Below, one piece after another: positions 35,899-47,918 of a stretch of DNA of 48,006 nt (its first letter is position 1; every line of letters begins with the position of its first letter). This stretch comes from Rickettsiales bacterium (lineage in GTDB: Bacteria; Pseudomonadota; Alphaproteobacteria; Rickettsiales; UBA8987): positions 197,698 through 245,703 of the forward strand of contig JAHDCD010000001.1 of assembly GCA_020630095.1 (NCBI GenBank). The letters are read 5' to 3'. Made by a program: the position numbers and the translations under genes. The notes under the pieces were generated by a model that ran no database searches, was not told where the DNA came from, and saw only the letters and a list, made by a program, of their open reading frames with translations.

Positions 35899-36603
35899 TT
35901 ACTTAGCGTCGCAAGACTCGTAGCATTTGCCACAGCAAAGCTTATGAGCAAGACCAGCTAATATAGCGCCACCTAATGGAGCTACAATGAATACCCATAA
36001 TTGGCTAAGAGCTTCGCCACCAGCCATAATAGCAGGTCCGAATGATCTAGCAGGGTTAACTGATGTACCAGTTACCGGAATACCAATTAAGTGAATTACA
36101 GTTAATGCAGAACCAATTGCAAGACCAGCTAGAGCTGGGTTACCTTTAGCCGAAGTAGCTTTTAAGATAACGTATACAAAGATGAATGTTAAGATCACCT
36201 CAGCTGCAATCGCTGAATTAAGGTCGTATCCACCAGGAGAGCCATTTAAGAAACCGTTTTGACCGAATCCGCCAGTATAAGTACCAGCTACACCGTCAAC
36301 GATAACTTTGATTAGGAATGCACCTACTAATGCACCTAGGCATTGAGAGATGATATATCCAATAGAGTTTCTAACGCAGATTTTGCCGTTAATTAACAAA
36401 GCTATTGTAACCGCAGGGTTAACGTGACAGCCAGATATAGGGCCGATAGCGTAGATAAGGAATGTTAATGTTAAGCCGAATGCTAATGAGATGCCTAAAT
36501 AACCTACTTGGTCGCCAGCGATAACTGCCGTACCACAGGCTAGTAGAACGAGAATAAGAGTTCCGATGAACTCAGCAAAGTATTTACTAGTTGTGTTACA
36601 CAT
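35899..36603 (-). CDS. aqpZ: Aquaporin Z-type channel
   Basis: This 234-residue MIP-family protein conducts water across the inner membrane. The six-helix fold carries both NPA boxes, GCHVNPAVTIAL and GTSVNPARSFGP, the latter with the selectivity-filter Arg. The N-terminus FAEFIGTLILVLLACGTAV is typical. An unusual C-terminal tail LCCGKCYESCDAK holds four cysteines, unlike standard AqpZ. Upstream lies a 212-bp intergenic region with five hairpins. Water selectivity rather than glycerol is inferred from the AqpZ-like sequence. Confidence 0.93.
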   Translation of the reverse strand: MCNTTSKYFAEFIGTLILVLLACGTAVIAGDQVGYLGISLAFGLTLTFLIYAIGPISGCHVNPAVTIALLINGKICVRNSIGYIISQCLGALVGAFLIKVIVDGVAGTYTGGFGQNGFLNGSPGGYDLNSAIAAEVILTFIFVYVILKATSAKGNPALAGLAIGSALTVIHLIGIPVTGTSVNPARSFGPAIMAGGEALSQLWVFIVAPLGGAILAGLAHKLCCGKCYESCDAK

Positions 36604-36614
36604 AATAATAATCC

Positions 36615-36757
36615 TAGAGCGTTAAGCTCTAATTGGTTAGTTTGTTTTTTAGTAATAAATTTTGTTAATTTATTACTATCCGCCATGTTAGCTTACGCTC
36701 ACAAGCGTAAAAGCAACTGAAGTTGCTTTTGGTGTATAAGTTTACAAACGTAAACTT
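36615..36757 (-). repeat. Tandem hairpin array A (five hairpins)
   Basis: Five perfect inverted repeats follow one another between aqpZ and the chorismate mutase gene: TAGAGC/GCTCTA (36615-36631), AGTAATAAATT/AATTTATTACT (36651-36677), TTACGCT/AGCGTAA (36693-36710), AAAAGCAACT/AGTTGCTTTT (36709-36730) and AAGTTTAC/GTAAACTT (36738-36757). An alternative ATAAGTT (36736-36742) with AACTTAT (36762-36768) competes with the last. The order and shapes match array B at 39851-39946. Minus is given because both arrays trail a minus-strand gene. Confidence 0.75.
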
Positions 36758-36815
36758 TGTTAACTTATCCACTTATTAACCCACTACCCTAGATGGTTGG
36801 TTTGTAAAGAGTTTT

Positions 36816-37469
36816 TTAAATATTAACAAAGAAACCGATGATATCATCTTTGTTATCTATGGTTGTGGAAGTGTTGAATTTACCATCTTGAAAATTAATA
36901 AAACTTTGTTCACTAGTATTTTCTATTTCTAAGTTGGCAATCGCTACGAAATCTTGAGCATTGCTTTCTATAACGGGAACTTTTGCAAATATCTTGGGCG
37001 CGCCCTCGCCTTTTAACATGTCCCAGTAAATTTTATCTTCTTTAAAAGGTATAACAGCTAGAGATGCTTCGCCTGTTAGCAACTTCTCTACAGCGTCTTT
37101 TGCATTGTTGCGGATTGTAATATTATTAAACTCGCCAAAATACTCCCTTGAAAGCCAATAGCCGGTATCGCAACAGGTAGATATTTCTGTATTTTCTTCG
37201 AGCGCTACAGAAGAGCCAATTATTTTACGCATTATTGAGATAATCTTGTTATCGGCAATTTTACCTGAAGATTCCTTAATAAGATTACGAACCATTAATG
37301 CTTCGCGTGTTGGGCGTATAATAGTTTCCTTCGAATTCTTCAGATCTTTTAACTCGCCAACATTTTCTACAACATCAAAACGCTTTTCTAATAAATGCAA
37401 TATTTGCGCATCTATTGCGTCTATTTGCCCTCTTAAACGATTTAATTCTATTTCCTTATCTGGAGTCAT
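36816..37469 (-). CDS. Chorismate mutase (AroQ) with a C-terminal extra domain
   Basis: The N-terminal 90 residues form an AroQ-type chorismate mutase, which rearranges chorismate to prephenate for Phe and Tyr synthesis: ELNRLRGQIDAIDAQILHLLEKRFDVVENVGELK, then REALMVRNLIKESSG. The remaining 125 residues (GYWLSREYFGEF ... LAVIPFKEDKIYWDMLKGEG) resemble a C-terminal domain I recall from alphaproteobacterial chorismate mutases, perhaps regulatory; it is too short for a prephenate dehydratase. I chose ATG 37469 (217 aa) over TTG 37502. No SD is seen. Hairpin array A lies downstream. Confidence 0.82.
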   Translation of the reverse strand: MTPDKEIELNRLRGQIDAIDAQILHLLEKRFDVVENVGELKDLKNSKETIIRPTREALMVRNLIKESSGKIADNKIISIMRKIIGSSVALEENTEISTCCDTGYWLSREYFGEFNNITIRNNAKDAVEKLLTGEASLAVIPFKEDKIYWDMLKGEGAPKIFAKVPVIESNAQDFVAIANLEIENTSEQSFINFQDGKFNTSTTIDNKDDIIGFFVNI

Positions 37470-37550
37470 GAATCTTGAAGATATAGTTGATGCAAAGTGC
37501 AATCAAGGGGTTTTTTATATAGTTTGATACTTAATTAGTTAATTAAATCA

Positions 37551-37594
37551 TTGTGTTATTAACAAATAATTCGTTATACAGATAACGAATTATT
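37551..37594 (+). promoter_or_regulatory. Promoter and palindromic operator of the HigA-like regulator
   Basis: TTGTGT (37551-37556) and TTATAC (37574-37579) are 17 bp apart. A perfect 13-bp inverted repeat, AATAATTCGTTAT (37565-37577) and ATAACGAATTATT (37582-37594), covers the -10 element. Binding of the encoded HTH protein here would block transcription, the usual autoregulation of HigA-type proteins. Confidence 0.65.
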
Positions 37595-37633
37595 TTCTTG
37601 CCATCAATATATTTAATTTTATATGAATCTATT

Positions 37634-39699: not shown

Positions 39700-39838
39700 G
39701 AGCTAAAAACAAAGATTTTTAACATAGCGCCATTGATATATAAGGGTTTTTAAAAGAATTGGGCTTGAAAATATTATTTTCTGAGGATTTTAAGGTTTTA
39801 AGGATTTTCTATATTCTGGAAAATGCTGTTTTTAGCTC
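39700..39838. repeat. 139-bp segment bounded by 12-bp inverted repeats
   Basis: GAGCTAAAAACA (39700-39711) and TGTTTTTAGCTC (39827-39838) are perfect inverted repeats enclosing AT-rich, non-coding DNA. The shape is like a MITE, but no target duplication is evident. Confidence 0.4.
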
Positions 39839-39850
39839 TATAGTCTTTTC

Positions 39851-39946
39851 TAAATTGCATCGTATATACGATGCAATTTAGGCACGCTTGCTTCGCAGCG
39901 CAAAAGTGGCTCAAGCCACTTTTGAGAGTAAATTCTAATTTACTCT
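39851..39946 (-). repeat. Tandem hairpin array B (four hairpins)
   Basis: Four adjacent inverted repeats: a perfect 30-bp palindrome TAAATTGCATCGTAT/ATACGATGCAATTTA (39851-39880), CGCTTGC/GCAGCG with one bulge (39885-39900), CAAAAGTGGCT/AGCCACTTTTG (39901-39924) and AGAGTAAATT/AATTTACTCT (39925-39946). The last contains the RND stop codon (39935-39937). Same order as array A. Confidence 0.75.
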
Positions 39947-42900
39947 ATTTCTATCCACTAAATATATTAATACTGGTGTGAAGAATAAGGTTAGAATTGT
40001 TGCAAAGGTTAACCCGCCAGCAACGGATGTTGATAATTGTTGCCACCATTGTGTTGATGGTGCGCCGATTGAAACTTCACGGCTGATGAAGTTAATATTA
40101 AATGCTAGTACCATTGGCAGTAAACCCAAAACAGTTGTACCTGCAGTTAATAATATAGGGCGCAAACGCTCCGAACACGCGTTTATTATAGCATTTAGCG
40201 AACTTACCCCCTTCCGACGATATTCATTGTAAGTATCTATTAAGATAATGTTGTTGTTAACTACAACGCCAGCTAGCGAGATAACCCCTACTCCGCACAT
40301 TACAATGCCGAACGGTTGACCGGTTATCATTAAGCCAAATAATACGCCTATGGTCGATAAGAATATTGCGCTCATTATTAGCACCGCTTGGAAGATATTA
40401 TTAAACTGAATAAGTAAGATAATAAACATTAGCAATAAAGCTGTGCCGAATGCGGAACTTAGGAATTTTTGGGTTTCTTTTTTACTTTCATCGTCACCTT
40501 TGAAGCGTACTTGGATATTAGGGCTAAAAACTTTGGCATCATATTGTTCTGATAACCAGTTAGTTAGCTCCTTAATTTTATTATTAGGTAGAGTGCCACG
40601 TTTAACATCGGCCTTAACTGTGTATGCACGCTTGCCATCTACGCGTTTAATAATGCCGGTGGTTGGTTTAGCTTCACGCTCAATAAAGTTAGATGCTGGT
40701 ATAAGGTTATCGCCAGATACGATATTTAAATTATCAAGCTGGGTGATATCCCGCGCATAGGATGGGAAGCGGATTACAACATCCACTTCGTCATCAGATG
40801 TTTCAGGGCGGTAAGTTGTTACCTTTAAGCCGTTAGTTATTAGACGGATGAAATTACCAATCTCTGCAATTGAAACTCCAAATTGGCTGGCGATATCACG
40901 TTTAATGTTAATTACCCATTCAATAGATGGTACGGGAATGTCAGACTCTACGTTGATTATCTCTTCTTCATCTTCAAGCTTTTGGGTGATTAGTTTACTT
41001 GCCTGTAGAATTTCAGCTCTATCATTGCCAGCAACTTCAATAATAATTGCTTTATCGGATGCTGGACCTTTCTTTTCTTTAGCGGCTTCAATTTTTACGC
41101 CAGATATTTTATCTAGCTTAGTTTGCATATCTTCTAAAATTTCGTTAGCTTTACGGCGCTTTTGCCAATCTTGAAATTCTAGGGTTATTAAGCCGATAAC
41201 ATCTTCAGGCAAGTCATTGCCGCCGCCGCTGAACTCGCCTGCTCTGGTGTATACAACGCGAACTTCGTTTTGATATTGCATGGAGATTTCTTCGACTTCT
41301 TTCATTATATCTGCTTTTTCATAAACAGATAAATTGCCACGCGCTCTAACCTGTAACTTTGCATTATCGGGTTCTATGGATGGAAAGAACTCTACGCCTT
41401 TTGCAGTTACAACGAATAAAGCTACTATTATAAAGATTAGCGCGGTAAACCCGCTCAAAAACTTAAATGGGTTATTTAAGAAGGTTTTTAAATATTTAAT
41501 ATACTTATCTTTTAAGTTGCTCTGCTTTTCTTTTGAGGTTTTAGATGCGCCAAATAACGAGCCCACTGATGGCATGAATATTAAAGCCGTAAATACCGAT
41601 GCGATAAGTACACAAATAAGTGTTAATGGCAGATACTTCATAAACTGTCCCATTATTCCGGGCCAGAATAGTAAAGGTGCGAATACAACTAATGTTGTGG
41701 CTGTAGAGGCTATAATAGGCAGGCTCATGCGCTTGGCAGATTCCGCGTAGGCTTGGACTTTTGTTTTACCTTGGCTCATCAATCTACTGGCGTATTCAAC
41801 TACAATTATGGCGGAATCTACTAGCATGCCAACACTCATTATGAGTGAGAATAGTACCACGATGTTTAGTGTTAGCCCTAAATGGTTGATTAATAATATG
41901 CCTATCAGGAATGATACTGGAATCGAGAAAGCTACCATCATGGATGAGCGGATGCCGATGAACGCCATAACAACAACTAGTACAAGCAGGAATGCTAAGA
42001 ATAAGTTATTCTGCAAATCTGATAGCATATTTAATATGTTACCAGATTCGTCTTGTGCGTAGAGTAGTTGTATTTGCCCTTGGAATAATCCTTCATTTTC
42101 TTGTAGCACTTGCTTTACGGCAGATACTGTTTGAATAATATTCTCACCTGTGCGTTTGGATATTTCAAGTACTACCGCCTTGCTTTGATTAACGGATGCG
42201 AATGAGGTTGCGTCTTTGTAAGATTGTCGAATCTCCGCTAAATCTTTAAAGCGTAGGGCGTTGTATTCGTCTGATTTAATTGGGAAGTTTATTATGTCTT
42301 CAAAAGTTTCAATTACCCCAGGAACTTTAATTCCAAATCTACTGCCATTAGCGCCGCTTGAGCCGGTATCTAGAATACCAGCGCTTACGAGTAGGTTATT
42401 ATTTCTGATAACGTTAATTAATTCAGATGATATTCCATAGCTTTCTAAAATGTGTGGTTCAATTACTACCTCAACCATGTCTTCACGTTCGCCAGCAATA
42501 TCCACTTCTAGCACGGAAGGTATAAGCTCTATTTTATCTTTTAGCTTTTTGGCAATGTTAATTAATGAGCGTTCTGGGATGTCTGAAAGTAAAATAACAT
42601 TTAGAACTGGAAACTCAGAAAGATTTATTTCATGTACCCGTGGCTCCTCAGTTTCTTCAGGTAATTTGGTTTTTACCTTATCTACCGCTTCACGAATTTC
42701 ATCTAAGGCTTTATCAGAATTAAAACCGGCATTGAATTCCATTGTTACCGATGCGTATCCAGTAGATGCCACTGAGCGAATTTCTTTTATGCCCTCAATT
42801 GTGTTTACTTCATCTTCAACTGGGCGCACAAGCATGCGTTCAGCGTCTTCTGGTGAAATACCTTCATGGCGTAACGATACGTATATAATTGGAATTTTAA

Positions 42901-43021
42901 CATCCGGAGTAGACTCGCGAGGTATTGATTTATATGCAGAAATTCCTGAAATAACTAACAGTAATAGGATGGCAATTGTTGCCCTGCTCTTTGATATAAA
43001 AAATTGTATTAATGAATTCAC
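39935..43021 (-). CDS. RND-superfamily efflux permease, orphan
   Basis: This 1028-residue inner-membrane transporter has the AcrB/HAE1 layout: TM1 (ATIAILLLLVISGISAY), a large periplasmic loop, TM2-6, a second loop and TM8-12. The TM4 motif is GMLVDSAIIVVE, keeping the first proton-relay Asp (about residue 402) but with Ser in place of the second. The TM10 motif GVVVNNNIILID has Asn where AcrB has the relay Lys. These variants occur in other RND branches, so substrate cannot be guessed. The start is GTG 43021. No membrane fusion or TolC-like gene is adjacent; the upstream neighbour is tRNA-Asn. Confidence 0.9.
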   Translation of the reverse strand: MNSLIQFFISKSRATIAILLLLVISGISAYKSIPRESTPDVKIPIIYVSLRHEGISPEDAERMLVRPVEDEVNTIEGIKEIRSVASTGYASVTMEFNAGFNSDKALDEIREAVDKVKTKLPEETEEPRVHEINLSEFPVLNVILLSDIPERSLINIAKKLKDKIELIPSVLEVDIAGEREDMVEVVIEPHILESYGISSELINVIRNNNLLVSAGILDTGSSGANGSRFGIKVPGVIETFEDIINFPIKSDEYNALRFKDLAEIRQSYKDATSFASVNQSKAVVLEISKRTGENIIQTVSAVKQVLQENEGLFQGQIQLLYAQDESGNILNMLSDLQNNLFLAFLLVLVVVMAFIGIRSSMMVAFSIPVSFLIGILLINHLGLTLNIVVLFSLIMSVGMLVDSAIIVVEYASRLMSQGKTKVQAYAESAKRMSLPIIASTATTLVVFAPLLFWPGIMGQFMKYLPLTLICVLIASVFTALIFMPSVGSLFGASKTSKEKQSNLKDKYIKYLKTFLNNPFKFLSGFTALIFIIVALFVVTAKGVEFFPSIEPDNAKLQVRARGNLSVYEKADIMKEVEEISMQYQNEVRVVYTRAGEFSGGGNDLPEDVIGLITLEFQDWQKRRKANEILEDMQTKLDKISGVKIEAAKEKKGPASDKAIIIEVAGNDRAEILQASKLITQKLEDEEEIINVESDIPVPSIEWVINIKRDIASQFGVSIAEIGNFIRLITNGLKVTTYRPETSDDEVDVVIRFPSYARDITQLDNLNIVSGDNLIPASNFIEREAKPTTGIIKRVDGKRAYTVKADVKRGTLPNNKIKELTNWLSEQYDAKVFSPNIQVRFKGDDESKKETQKFLSSAFGTALLLMFIILLIQFNNIFQAVLIMSAIFLSTIGVLFGLMITGQPFGIVMCGVGVISLAGVVVNNNIILIDTYNEYRRKGVSSLNAIINACSERLRPILLTAGTTVLGLLPMVLAFNINFISREVSIGAPSTQWWQQLSTSVAGGLTFATILTLFFTPVLIYLVDRNRVN

Positions 43022-43124: not shown

Positions 43125-43199
43125 TCCTTGGTAGCTCAGTGGTAGAGCAGGAGACTGTTAATCTCTTGGTCGGGGGTTCGAATCCCTCCCAAGGAGCCA
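43125..43199 (+). tRNA. tRNA-Asn (GTT)
   Basis: The cloverleaf is complete: acceptor TCCTTGG/CCAAGGA, D-arm with AGCTCAGTGGTAGAGC, anticodon loop CTGTTAA giving anticodon GTT, TpsiC loop GGGGGTTCGAATCCCTCC, discriminator G and encoded CCA. An integrase gene follows 185 nt downstream, so its 3' end is the likely attachment site. Confidence 0.97.
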
Positions 43200-43261
43200 A
43201 TAAAATCTATATATTTCAATAGATTATATCAACTCCGCAAATTAACAAAAACATTCTTGGG

Positions 43262-43325
43262 CCAAATTTGGGCCACTTCATTTCAATAAAGGTAATTTTC
43301 TGAATAAATTTGACTGAATTTATTC
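43262..43325. repeat. Inverted repeats between tRNA-Asn and the integrase gene
   Basis: A CCAAATTTGG palindrome (43262-43271) lies within two overlapping TTGGGCCA-like units. A 9-bp inverted repeat GAATAAATT/AATTTATTC (43302-43310 and 43317-43325) follows. Position suggests integrase arm sites or a repressor operator. Confidence 0.45.
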
Positions 43326-43383
43326 CTATTAACCTAACAGCTAAAAACATAATGTGGTCCGCTAACTTTTACAGGAGTTTATT

Positions 43384-44421
43384 ATGGCCACTATCAATGA
43401 AAGAAAAACTGCTAACGGAACCATCAAATATCGTGCTAAAGTGCGTATGAACGGTTTGGAGTTTAGTAAGACCTTTGCACGCAAAACAGATGCTAAAGAA
43501 TGGATTGCTTCAACTGAAACCAAGATACGAGAGGGAGAACTTACCGGTGGCGCAGTATATCGCAAGAAAACACTTTCTGAGGCAGTCGCTAAGTTCAAAA
43601 AGCAGAAAGAAAGTATGTCTGCACATTGGAAGAACTATAAATTCCACTTCAAATATTTAGAGAATAATTACGGCAAAGTTAAAATTGAAAACTTCACACC
43701 GGCCAAGATTGCTGAAATTCGTGATAGGTTAAAAGATGAAGGGCGGAGTAATGCAACTGTTAATAGATATCTCAGCACTTTAAGTAGTTTATTTAATACT
43801 ATAGTTAAAGAATGGATGTGGTTAAATGCAAACCCTTGCAGGAATATTAAAAAGCTCCGTGAAGATAATGCACGCGAACGTTTCTTAACTAAAGATGAAA
43901 TATCAAAGCTCTTAGCGGTGGCTAAGCAAGAAACTAAGCTGCCTATGTATCCTATATTATTAATTGCGGTGCGTACTGGCATGAGGCGCGGTGAGATATT
44001 AAACCTCAAATGGACTGACATTGATTATGATAACGGTCTTATAATTATTCAGCGCACCAAGAACGGCGATAAACGCTCAGTTCCGTTAACTCTAGAGATT
44101 AAAGAGGCTTTAGAAGTATACGGCAAAGTTAGAAGGCTAGATACTCAGCTTGTATTTCCCTCACCTACTAAACCATCAGTTCCACCAGAAATTAAGAATG
44201 AATTTGCTAATATTATTGCAAAAGCAGAGATTACAGATTTTCGTTTTCATGACTTACGCCATACAGCGGCATCATATATGGCTATGAGTGGAGCTAGTTT
44301 ACTTGATATAGCTTCAATACTTGGCCATCGCACAATGCATATGGTTAAACGCTACAGCCACTTGACAAAAAGCCATGAACGTTCAGTAATAGAGCGAATG
44401 AACCAAGCAATGATTGAGTAA
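43384..44421 (+). CDS. int: Tyrosine recombinase/integrase
   Basis: This 345-residue protein catalyses site-specific recombination. An N-terminal arm-binding segment (ANGTIKYRAKVRMNGLEFSKTFARKTDAKEWI) precedes a SAM-like core-binding domain (LSEAVAKFKKQ ... LSTLSSLFNTI) and the catalytic domain. The catalytic residues are Arg in RTGMRRGEILNLKW (near 198), His-x-x-Arg in FHDLRHTAASYM (near 290), His in LGHRTMHMV and Tyr in RYSHL (near 324). The SD AGGAG lies at 43372-43376. Its 3' end shares a base with the next ATG (TAATG). It sits beside tRNA-Asn, the presumed target. Confidence 0.95.
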   Translation: MATINERKTANGTIKYRAKVRMNGLEFSKTFARKTDAKEWIASTETKIREGELTGGAVYRKKTLSEAVAKFKKQKESMSAHWKNYKFHFKYLENNYGKVKIENFTPAKIAEIRDRLKDEGRSNATVNRYLSTLSSLFNTIVKEWMWLNANPCRNIKKLREDNARERFLTKDEISKLLAVAKQETKLPMYPILLIAVRTGMRRGEILNLKWTDIDYDNGLIIIQRTKNGDKRSVPLTLEIKEALEVYGKVRRLDTQLVFPSPTKPSVPPEIKNEFANIIAKAEITDFRFHDLRHTAASYMAMSGASLLDIASILGHRTMHMVKRYSHLTKSHERSVIERMNQAMIE

Positions 44422-45320
44422 TGGCTAATATAAGTTCTGAAAGAGTTTCTAGAGTTAAAAGGGATGTTAAAGATGAACGCAATAAATTAATTAAGTATCT
44501 AAAAGATAGCGCAAAAGAAAAAGGTCTTCGTGATATTGAAGATGATATATTTGCTATTAATACCTTCTATGACACACACTTAGACAGCCTAAGCAACTCT
44601 GCTACCCAATTTATTGAAAAACTCTTAGAATATGATTCTTTTTATGAGACTCTTACATCTTTGATAACCATACTTCCTGTTGATATAAAAGATTACCCTA
44701 TAAAAGAAAAAAGAACTCTTAAGCAAGTTGAATCTTCGTTAGAAGATATAGTTACTAATTTAGTTAAGTTATCGAATCAATTTAAAGAAATTGGATTAGA
44801 TATGGATGGTACTCTATTTTTATCTAATGAACTTTATGATAAGATATTTCCTAAAGCACTAATACCAGCCTCAAAAATAGGTGACGCCAACTTTTTAGGT
44901 ATAGAGTTCCAGCCCAGAGAGCATTTAAATATTAGTATATCTGAATTATTAATAGATATATCTAAGCAGATAGCAACGAAGGCGCCTTTTCAGTATTCAT
45001 ACAGTAAAACAGATTATTCACACTCCGCAGAAAAAGAATATTATGTAGATATAACACTATTCACATATTACAAATTCCTTAGGACTGAAGGTGTTGAATT
45101 AAATCTATCTGGCCTGTGTTCATTTATTAATGACGTTTGTAATTTAAGCGGGCAACAAAATCTAGATCCAATAAAAATCAAACAACGTCTTAATAAAGAT
45201 TCCAGCGATTTAATGGACAAGTTCAGTGGACAAATTGTAAATCCAAATGATATAATTATTAGCTTCAATCTTTCAGAAAGATTGTTGAAGAAAATCAAAA
45301 AGATAGAGTCAAATTATTAA
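44421..45320 (+). CDS. Unknown element-encoded protein, 299 aa
   Basis: I do not recognise this protein. It is soluble and helical at the N-terminus (RVSRVKRDVKDERNKLIKYLKDSAKEKG), with a long predicted coil (TLKQVESSLEDIVTNLVKLSNQFKEIG) and a C-terminal half rich in aromatic and acidic residues. No enzymatic motif is apparent. It is translationally coupled to the integrase through TAATG, so it may be a cofactor or cargo of the element. Confidence 0.6.
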   Translation: MANISSERVSRVKRDVKDERNKLIKYLKDSAKEKGLRDIEDDIFAINTFYDTHLDSLSNSATQFIEKLLEYDSFYETLTSLITILPVDIKDYPIKEKRTLKQVESSLEDIVTNLVKLSNQFKEIGLDMDGTLFLSNELYDKIFPKALIPASKIGDANFLGIEFQPREHLNISISELLIDISKQIATKAPFQYSYSKTDYSHSAEKEYYVDITLFTYYKFLRTEGVELNLSGLCSFINDVCNLSGQQNLDPIKIKQRLNKDSSDLMDKFSGQIVNPNDIIISFNLSERLLKKIKKIESNY

Positions 45321-45335
45321 TACATATAAATCCCT

Positions 45336-45393
45336 TAAATTTTTATCAATTTATAAATTTTTATCAGAAACTCAGAAAATATTATGAGTTTCT
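45336..45393 (+). promoter_or_regulatory. Control region of the HTH-188aa-polymerase module
   Basis: Two identical direct repeats TAAATTTTTATCA (45336-45348 and 45354-45366) are 18 bp apart. They are followed by a perfect inverted repeat AGAAACTCA/TGAGTTTCT (45366-45374 and 45385-45393) that touches the ATG at 45394. This looks like an iteron-like or operator region for the encoded HTH protein. Confidence 0.5.
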
Positions 45394-45642
45394 ATGACAA
45401 ATAAGTCACATAAAACCCAGTCTTGGCAGCAGCTATATAGTGTTGCTGAGATGGTGCAGCGTCATGGCTTTTTAAGTGAAGGTCAGCTGCGTAAACTTAT
45501 CTTTAATTCTAATACTAACGGTTTCGATGAAGTTATTCTCCGACTTGGACGTAAGGTTCTTATTAATGAGGATAAATTCTTCGAATGGTTAGATAACAAA
45601 AATCAACAAAACTTAGACTTAGGAGGTGCAAGCTATGAGTAA
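45394..45642 (+). CDS. Excisionase/MerR-like HTH DNA-binding protein
   Basis: This 82-residue protein resembles small HTH proteins of proteobacterial integrative elements: LYSVAEMVQRHGFLSEGQLRKLIFNSNTNGFDEVILRLGRKVLINEDKFFEWLDNK. The R-x-GRKVLI..DKFFEWL pattern is characteristic of that group. It begins directly after an inverted repeat and its 3' end overlaps the next gene by 8 nt. A role in regulating the module or in excision is likely. Confidence 0.75.
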   Translation: MTNKSHKTQSWQQLYSVAEMVQRHGFLSEGQLRKLIFNSNTNGFDEVILRLGRKVLINEDKFFEWLDNKNQQNLDLGGASYE

Positions 45643-46201
45643 AGATAATAAAGCTCCATTTTCTAATATGGACAAGTTTAAGGTAAACAATGATTTCCTT
45701 AATACTGGCGCTACAGAAGAAATGTTATCTAAGGTACCTATTAGCAAGCCTAATAAGAAGAAGTTTGTTCATGCTAACCCTGAAGAATCTTATACAGTTC
45801 AAATACGTTGTATTGAAGATAATGAGGGACAGTTGTACTATGTTAGCGATAATATAGCTGGTAATATACCAGAGCTGTGCGCCACCTATAGAATAACTCA
45901 TTATATTACTAGACAAGGTAATTCTTTTCTTTGGCCTGTTAAACTATCTACATGGGGTGATAAGCTTAATGGCTGGGCAGAGTCAGCTCTAAAAGCAGTT
46001 GAAGAAGCTAAAGATAACTGGATTCGTATTTGTGCAGAAAAAGAGCTGAACGGTTATAAAATAATAAAACCAAAAGCTCAACTTGAATCTCCAATATGGC
46101 CTAGCTATTCAATGGAAGAGTTACTTGAAACTGCTTTTGAAGGCCGTGTTATTGACTCAATGGATAACCCGCTAATTAAGGAGTTAGAAGGTCGTGTATA
46201 A
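45635..46201 (+). CDS. Conserved element protein, 188 aa, of unknown function
   Basis: The true start is ATG 45635, with AGGAGG at 45621-45626; a GTG at 45626 lies in the SD. The 188-residue soluble protein reads FVHANPEESYTVQIRCIEDNEGQLYYVSDNIAG, then ITRQGNSFLWPVKLSTWGDKLNGWAESALKAVEEAKDNWIRI and IDSMDNPLIKELEGRV. From memory, similar proteins sit between an HTH gene and a DNA polymerase in other proteobacterial elements. It is coupled to both neighbours by 8-nt overlaps. A replication or single-strand DNA handling role is possible but unproven. Confidence 0.65.
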   Translation: MSKDNKAPFSNMDKFKVNNDFLNTGATEEMLSKVPISKPNKKKFVHANPEESYTVQIRCIEDNEGQLYYVSDNIAGNIPELCATYRITHYITRQGNSFLWPVKLSTWGDKLNGWAESALKAVEEAKDNWIRICAEKELNGYKIIKPKAQLESPIWPSYSMEELLETAFEGRVIDSMDNPLIKELEGRV

Positions 46202-47918
46202 TTTTGATAAACAATTTAGCGATTTTCAGGAAGTATGGTGCTGCGATTTTGAATTCGCAGCACTTGATGGCAATCGTCCAGAAGTTAAATGTATGGTTGC
46301 CATCGAACTTCATAGCGGGAGGGAGATAAAACTATTTAGAGAAGATCTTTACAGACTTGATAAACCTCCTTTCGATATTGGTAAAAACTCCCTCTTTATA
46401 GCTTATTATGCTCCTGATGAAATATCTTGTTTCTTAAGTCTTGGTTGGGAATTGCCCAAATATATTCTAGACTTATGTGTTGAATTTAAAAATATCCTCT
46501 CAGGCATTGAGGGTTGTAAAGGCTTAATAGATTGTTTGAAATATTACGGCCTTTCTTCAATTGATACGCTTAAAAAAGATTCTATGCGTGAACTAGCGTT
46601 GCGTGAAGGTGATTATACAGATAAAGAAAGGCGAGACTTACTCGATTACTGTAAGTCAGATGTTGATGCGCTTGTTAAGTTATTGCCACAAATGATTGGC
46701 TCAATATCTTTACCTTATGCACTAATTAGAGGTGAGTACACAAAAGCAACGGCTCAAATTGAACGGAACGGAGTTCCTATTAGTGCTACTTTGCTAACCC
46801 AAATAAAAGAGCAATGGCCAGATATCAAAGCTAAACTTATTGAAGATGTTGATAAAGATTATGGTGTTTTTGATAATGGTAGCTTCAATAATAAAAAGTT
46901 TAGAAACTTTATTGATGAGCGAGGCTACAGATGGCCAAGAAATATTAACGGCTCACTCAAAACCGATAAAGATACACTCAAACAACTAGCTAAAAAATAT
47001 CCTGAATTAGAGTATCTAAAAGAGCTTTTAGCTACAATCCGTTCAACAAATTTACTTAAGCTTCCAGTTGGTGTTGATGAGCGCAATAGAACTAATTTAT
47101 GGTGCTTCGGTACTAAAACGAGCAGAAACGCACCTAGCACTAGTGAGTTTATATTTGGTCCTGCAACATGGGTTCGATATTTGATAAAACCTAAAGAAGG
47201 TTTCGCATTAGCTTATATTGATTATTCGCAGCAAGAATTCGCAATAGCAGCCTATATGTCAGGTGATAAGAAAATGCAGGAAGCTTATGAGTCAGGTGAT
47301 CCGTATTTAACCTTTGGCAAGCAATCAGGGTTAATACCTGCACACGCCACAAAAGAAACTCATAAAGCGGATCGTGATAAGTGTAAGATGTTAGTTCTTG
47401 CAATGAATTATGGAATGGCAGCCGAATCCTTATCAGATGCTTTAGATATCTCTAAGGCTGAAGCTCAACAGCTGATAGATAAATACCACAAAACATATGG
47501 TACCTATTCTAAATGGTCTGAATCAATCATAAATCATGGCGATATGACTGGCAATCTAAAGAGCGTTCTAGGCTGGCAGGTAAGTTGTCCCTATGAAGCT
47601 AAGTGGCGAAGTATGGCTAATTTTCCAATGCAAGCTAATGGAGCTGAAATGCTGCGACTATCGTGCATCGAAGGTTTAAGGCACGGTATTAAAATTTGTG
47701 CGCCTATTCATGATGCTGTGCTTATTGAGGCTCCTATAGATGAAATAGAAGATAAAATTGCCACTATGCGTGAGGTGATGTGTCAAGCTAGTAAATTTAT
47801 CCTAGATGGTGCGGAGGTTAAGACAGATAGAGAAATATATTGCTACCCCGAAACGTTCCAAGATAAACGTGGTGAGGAGATGTTTAATAAGATAGTAAAC
47901 CTACTTAAACCTGAGTAA
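46194..47918 (+). CDS. Family-A DNA polymerase with 3'-5' exonuclease
   Basis: This 574-residue protein is a phage-type family-A polymerase lacking the 5' nuclease domain of DNA polymerase I. The DEDDy exonuclease starts with DxE in CDFEFAALDG (Asp18, Glu20) and ends at LLDYCKSDVDAL. Polymerase motif A is DYSQQEFAIAA (Asp343), motif B RDKCKMLVLAMNYG near 394, and motif C PIHDAVLIEAP (Asp507). In motif C the usual HDE is HDA. The start is GTG 46194 with AAGGAG 10 nt upstream, overlapping the previous gene by 8 nt. Likely element replication or repair. Confidence 0.92.
   Translation: MYNFDKQFSDFQEVWCCDFEFAALDGNRPEVKCMVAIELHSGREIKLFREDLYRLDKPPFDIGKNSLFIAYYAPDEISCFLSLGWELPKYILDLCVEFKNILSGIEGCKGLIDCLKYYGLSSIDTLKKDSMRELALREGDYTDKERRDLLDYCKSDVDALVKLLPQMIGSISLPYALIRGEYTKATAQIERNGVPISATLLTQIKEQWPDIKAKLIEDVDKDYGVFDNGSFNNKKFRNFIDERGYRWPRNINGSLKTDKDTLKQLAKKYPELEYLKELLATIRSTNLLKLPVGVDERNRTNLWCFGTKTSRNAPSTSEFIFGPATWVRYLIKPKEGFALAYIDYSQQEFAIAAYMSGDKKMQEAYESGDPYLTFGKQSGLIPAHATKETHKADRDKCKMLVLAMNYGMAAESLSDALDISKAEAQQLIDKYHKTYGTYSKWSESIINHGDMTGNLKSVLGWQVSCPYEAKWRSMANFPMQANGAEMLRLSCIEGLRHGIKICAPIHDAVLIEAPIDEIEDKIATMREVMCQASKFILDGAEVKTDREIYCYPETFQDKRGEEMFNKIVNLLKPE

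Follow-up and report, generated by a model that had tools for sequence, protein, structure and literature searches.

Dispersed four-hairpin elements with covarying stems in a Rickettsiales genome, a likely family of IS630-type MITEs

Described miniature elements

Two tandem hairpin arrays, A and B, lie about three kilobases apart in a 48,006-nucleotide stretch of a Rickettsiales genome, which we refer to as the window, and several described families of small repeats resemble the element that they represent. RUP of Streptococcus pneumoniae, a MITE that IS630-Spn1 is believed to mobilize, is like the four-hairpin family in its length of about 107 bp, its ends shared with an IS630-family element and its insertions into transposase genes, and its TA target is a probable further likeness (PMC2229807, in the part available to us). 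RUP copies, however, are described as highly similar to one another (same part of PMC2229807), whereas the four-hairpin family has four local hairpins with drifting, covarying sequence. Judged by analogy, RUP with IS630-Spn1 is the closest system in mechanism.

Correia elements, like the elements described here, have ends that begin TATAG. Correia/NEMIS and other TA-ended MITEs are also small, with TA at both termini and stable folds (PMC2229807 and PMC10969869, each in part). Unlike them, the four-hairpin family has local stems; bacterial repeats other than CIR form a stem-loop by pairing of their 5' and 3' ends (PMC2229807, in part). A MITE of Ca. Thiomargarita nelsonii shares TATAG ends and many intergenic copies and has been likened to IS630 derivatives, but, in a comparison by description only, it forms one long hairpin (PMC4853749, in part). 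The Rickettsia palindromic elements (RPE), probably from the same order, are palindromic repeats of 105-146 bp (PMC2229807 and PMC10969869, each in part); compared by description only, they differ in being known for in-frame coding insertions, whereas 2 of 63 places of the four-hairpin family are inside a predicted frame. REPINs are mobile hairpins with compensatory changes (PMC3116915, in part), but they are RAYT-linked, and 11 of the 12 genomes that bear the present element gave no match to PF01797. A degraded IS630 in Orientia is mentioned, as are miniature relatives of other IS elements (PMC10732058, in part). The four-hairpin element is not described in the portions of PMC2229807, PMC4853749, PMC10732058, PMC10969869 and PMC3116915 that were available, and a limited literature search, with most subscription journals outside it, returned no described MITE with four tandem hairpins.

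Arrays A and B and their dispersed family

The initial annotation of the window had proposed two tandem hairpin arrays with the same order of stems and a common shape, and both arrays are present as it described them (Table 1). At two places in the window three perfect hairpins fall within 130 nt, whereas this happened in none of 60 dinucleotide-shuffled windows, where the maximum was one (55 windows) or two (5 windows). Folding of the minus strand gave z-scores of -6.7 for array A and -8.7 for array B, with no equally stable shuffle among 200 for either. Array B retains TATAGT at its left end and has a degenerate right end (ACTCTATT). The common shape is upheld by a covariance model trained without array A (R2, below), which found array A with 41.6 bits (filters off, E 9.7e-7 in 48 kb); an earlier model, R1, gave it 27.2 bits, and the next R2 matches in the window after the two arrays had E values of 0.07 and 0.15. 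Two details of the annotation need amending. Its array A began at 36615, and while the array itself stands, the small hairpin at 36615-36631 falls outside the element because the family match starts at 36640. It also had both arrays trailing a minus-strand gene, which is half right: array A does follow the chorismate mutase gene, yet it also precedes the start of the aquaporin gene, and array B overlaps the end of the AcrB-type gene, holding its last four codons and stop. Alignment of the AcrB-type product to six close homologs stops at residue 1024 or earlier, with a few distant homologs reaching 1027-1028; its best named relative, at 45%, is in a Midichloriaceae MAG.

Table 1. Positions of the two arrays, their stems and the adjacent genes in the window
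Feature	Position	Strand	Remarks
Aquaporin (MIP) gene	35899..36603	-	array A is 37 nt from its start
Array A, diverged copy of array B's element	36640..36769	+	found by R2 and R1; TATAGT lost at both ends
A stem 1	36650..36678	+	12 bp
A stem 2	36681..36707	+	outer CGC/GCG, enlarged interior
A stem 3	36709..36730	+	AAAAGCAACT / AGTTGCTTTT, 2-nt loop GA
A stem 4	36732..36772	+	imperfect 17-nt arms; perfect 8-bp inner hairpin 36738-36757
Chorismate mutase type II gene	36816..37502	-	3' end 47 nt from array A
Array B, four-hairpin element copy	39839..39949	+	R1 125.4 bits, R2 122 bits; in 14-copy alignment A1
B stem 1	39850..39881	+	16-bp perfect palindrome
B stem 2	39885..39900	+	CGCT/AGCG, core GCTTCGC
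B stem 3	39901..39924	+	CAAAAGTGGCT / AGCCACTTTTG, 2-nt loop CA
B stem 4	39925..39946	+	terminal palindrome bearing right end
AcrB-type transporter gene	39935..43021	-	Pfam ACR_tran 1.7e-176

When the region of array B was used to search its own genome (1,598,447 bases in 13 contigs), many copies of 76-84% identity were recovered, and the same search with array A gave, besides array A itself, nothing better than E 0.15. Model R1, built on an alignment of fourteen copies that was made without structure (A1), found 58 distinct places in the own genome at E<1e-3, a count from which six rows on the opposite strand and the overlapping row C13:155848 are omitted. From R1 we obtained a second alignment, A3, with 57 rows, comprising 41 own-genome copies and 16 copies from four relatives and not array A; it drew on 51 of 90 sources together with locus L109 and left out, among others, 15 sources with opposite-strand matches, near-duplicates and loci L114, L139, L152, L153 and L158. 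The covariance model R2 was made from A3, and among 88 genomes of the order it detected the family in 12, the own genome counted, in a search that used stricter filters, scored at most 38 candidates per genome and left 76 genomes to serve as negatives. Since a model that rewards pairing was used to detect the copies, decayed ones are under-counted. A lack of further copies in relatives, which the initial annotation had named as grounds for giving up its reading, is thus not what these genomes show. An exact 24-mer pattern had no match in a collection of genome contigs (which perhaps does not include the own genome), and one element of genome G005 had none among plasmid and phage records.

The element runs from TATAGT at one end through three local hairpins and a terminal palindrome to ACTATA at the other, and the best copies are about 103-138 bp long. 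A typical copy starts with TATAGTnTTT and a first stem of some 8-16 bp of free sequence, followed by stem 2, whose core reads GCTNCGC in 62 of 98 copies and the inverse, GCGNAGC, in one of the 98. Stem 3 mostly has AAAA at its start and TTTT at its end, and the terminal palindrome then closes with ACTATA. Compared by eye, L106 and L114 have stem 1 in common but not stems 2 and 3, and L114 agrees with L120:850 in the right half alone. On the right flank of the element at L115 there is a palindrome of about 50 bp, TATACAGGTATTC..GAATACTTGTATA, possibly another TA-ended MITE, and a lone 14-bp perfect hairpin at 37564-37595 of the window stands beside the start of a helix-turn-helix (HTH_3) gene at 37598.

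Ends, insertion and the relation to IS630

We think it likely that arrays A and B are two copies of a non-autonomous IS630-type MITE that inserted at TA, with stems kept paired by re-copying of their arms at the DNA level. As expected of a MITE, the elements are short and dispersed and have no transposase gene, and in one genome, G005, they share 12 of 12 bp at an end with an IS630-family element. There, TATAGTCATACC begins 15 nt beyond the stop codon of a DDE_3 gene remnant and agrees in every base with the 12-bp right end of the G005 elements. It is one of the matches of a pattern for both element ends, which matched 36+24 times in G005 as against 0+0 for the reversed pattern. TATAGT end pairs were also seen in three of the 14 IS630 loci examined (L215, L219 and L221), two of which carry TATAGTAAATT where the own-genome element has TATAGTAAATTCTAATTTA. 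The end pairs of whole IS630 copies are TATAGTAAATT/TATAGTAAAAT in G034, TATAGTAAATT/TATAGTCAATT in G012 and TATAGTAAGAT/TATAGTAAAAT in G070.

Several observations count against the link to IS630. Most of the 14 loci differ in their ends or lack an end pair, and the three genomes with whole TATAGT-ended IS630 copies (G012, G034 and G070) gave no element match in the 88-genome R2 search. In G050, where a weak DDE_3 match below the Pfam cut-off is followed by TATAGTAATTCC, the element ends (TATAGTATTTCT and TATAGCAATTTC) merely resemble that IS630-like end. Matches to DDE_3, which marks the IS630 family, were found in 22 of the 88 genomes, 17 of them over the Pfam cut-off, and they showed no significant tie to the element, being present in five of the 12 bearers (two over the cut-off) and in 17 of the 76 others (Fisher p 0.17).

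An IS630 transposase would have moved the element in trans. DDE_3 was not matched in the own genome, so the copies there are probably immobile, and the element would have become so when the gene for an IS630 transposase was lost. The G005 copies probably moved recently, since ten 138-bp copies (ten, not all) have only 0-3 differences from their consensus. As to the insertions themselves, we joined the flanks of 46 copies in a check for TA duplication, and among the 21 listed the one that was followed up is convincing: the copy at C2:71202 splits a reading frame, and removal of the element with one TA restores a frame of 133 amino acids. The join is spanned by an own paralog, L241, and by a G009 gene, L238, at about 30% identity; a tblastn search did not recover the paralog at C9:58623 (L240) seen in another search. 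Tandem G005 copies share one TA (L163), whereas at L223 two element-type ends abut without TA between them, which counts against insertion at TA. One element copy is located inside a DDE_3-like remnant (L224). With copies in many places and in several genomes, IS630-like ends and an interrupted frame, the structured mobile repeat that the initial annotation had offered as one of two explanations finds support. At L223 of G005, a 158-bp sequence at 626-783 carries TATAGTCATACC at both ends and abuts the IS630 remnant; the models did not list it as an element.

Covarying stems and what may keep them paired

Covariation commonly counts as the strongest sign of a functional RNA fold, and the family shows it very strongly. 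In A3, 95.1% of 1584 cells pair and double changes occur in 29 of 30 stem pairs. They make up 426 cells, where shuffles have a mean of 111, and the covariation score of 0.623 compares with 0.153 for shuffled and at most 0.093 for slid alignments. A3 was fitted to the structure, and in A1, aligned without it, double changes are seen in 15 of the 30 pairs. Conserved pairing across relatives, whose absence the initial annotation had likewise named as telling against it, is therefore present.

One possibility is that the arrays are transcribed into functional structured RNAs, either small RNAs or structures of a 3' or 5' UTR, whose pairing is selected. The strong covariation and the stable folds of arrays A and B would fit this explanation, but the mispairs do not, and we regard it as improbable. 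RNA pairing under selection tolerates wobble, so G-U would greatly outnumber A-C, and in A3 the two are close (42 G-U and 34 A-C in the 1584 cells, p 0.42), with 6 and 12, respectively, in A1. As a control, 27 own-genome tRNAs gave 36 G-U and 2 A-C, and own-genome element copies gave 32 and 25 (Fisher p 2e-5); 12 tRNAs from the extracted loci gave 10 and 1. ARAGORN, with which the tRNA control was made, itself favors paired stems. Given that G-U is not preferred over A-C, unlike in the own tRNAs, selection on RNA is not supported, and the other explanation of the initial annotation, selection on structure, is not borne out if RNA was meant. Gene context points the same way. All contexts occur among 63 places assigned with heuristic frames (27 same-direction, 16 divergent, 14 convergent, two inside a frame and four unresolved), a set made up of 61 listed places plus arrays A and B in which four are weaker than E 1e-3 or absent from the list at E<1e-3. 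Near gene starts the 3' end of the element is found 15 times and the 5' end eight times (p 0.21), and as neither orientation nor gene end is significantly preferred, we claim no UTR role. Besides tRNA, no Rfam family reached its cut-off in the window, Rfam matches to the elements in five loci at E<=1 were all below gathering scores, and no T-run typical of intrinsic terminators was seen by eye after the stems of A or B. In the copies that we class as worn, G-U outnumbers A-C by 21 to 11, which favors an RNA role but is not significant (p 0.11), and these copies may show a weak RNA effect. Several worn copies (L138, L142, L143, L146, L147 and L148) have their last hairpin at, or a few bases from, the start codon of a frame of at least 90 amino acids, a position that would also suit an RNA role.

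An alternative is that folded DNA, as a single strand or cruciform, is itself selected, in that the hairpin array is required by the transposase, by a host factor or for replication, and well-folded copies alone multiply. This explanation, which we consider rather unlikely although less so than an RNA function, agrees with the missing wobble preference, with the recurrence of the architecture across families of the order, and with the stem 2 core, which holds its orientation unlike some other loops. IS630 MITEs, however, are thought to need their ends alone, and the worn copies, presumably immobile, are as well folded as the intact ones: an exact left TATAGT is found in one of 21 worn copies and in 14 of 20 of the rest, in a class set by a model score that includes the ends, and pairing is 95.3% and 94.5%, respectively. 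That copies without ends pair as well as the others speaks against pairing being kept for mobility. Stem 4, which is unpaired in the model, makes a less biased test: in 15 of 20 worn copies no more than 3 of 100 mononucleotide shuffles attained its palindrome, and five copies fell short of this. Another mobilizer, one that recognizes hairpins, the Y1 (HUH) transposase of REPIN/RAYT-type elements, is highly improbable. The several hairpins and the compensatory changes described for REPINs (PMC3116915, in part) are in its favor, but the TATAGT ends are like those of IS630 elements, and we rejected a Y1/RAYT mobilizer with PF01797 in one of the 12 bearing genomes and absent from the own genome.

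Re-copying of the arms at the DNA level, the reading that we prefer, would account for the double changes, for the inverted loops and for G-U not being preferred, with no need of an RNA function. The arms of each hairpin would be re-copied from each other, by template switching or a cruciform-type exchange. A few loops are inverted between near-identical copies. Locus L165 differs from the G005 consensus solely by GTAAG to CTTAC in stem 4, and a loop that reads ATTC in five own copies is inverted to GAAT in L112. Such inversions are scarce, which counts against this reading: among copy pairs with like flanks, the loops are the same in 32, inverted in five (all via L112) and neither in 125; outside that count, weak inversions noted by eye are L126/L170 (GTA/TAC) and L127/L130 (TAA/TTA, equal to a single base change). 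Loop inversion together with multi-base compensatory change is described as a mark of template switching at hairpins (PMC8794818, in part). We infer that the arms are corrected at the DNA level, in copying or repair and probably by template switching. It is conceivable, if somewhat less than an even bet, that the family consists of self-correcting palindromes, a selfish element whose arms are repeatedly re-copied from one another, so that the fold is passed on across bacterial families as the sequence drifts, in dead copies too. If true, nature would here offer a case of textbook covariation, in nearly every stem pair, with little or no RNA selection behind it. A mobile DNA family with very strong covariation, no wobble preference and some inverted loops points to a DNA-level cause, and the count of G-U against A-C mispairs is a simple test that may be applied to other intergenic hairpins. 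The some 95 copies offer material for the study of template switching at hairpins.

Two further features of the window were noted. At 43125-47918 a tRNA-Asn is followed by a phage-type integrase gene and, at 46194-47918, by a family A DNA polymerase-like gene, possibly an integrated element. A second dispersed repeat occupies 39700-39824 and has at least six further copies in the genome (e.g., C10:14350, C8:48230 and C1:56809); it conserves CACCATTGAAATATAAG..AAAATATTATTTTT..TTTTCTATATT and occurs near hairpin elements in the window and at three other places.
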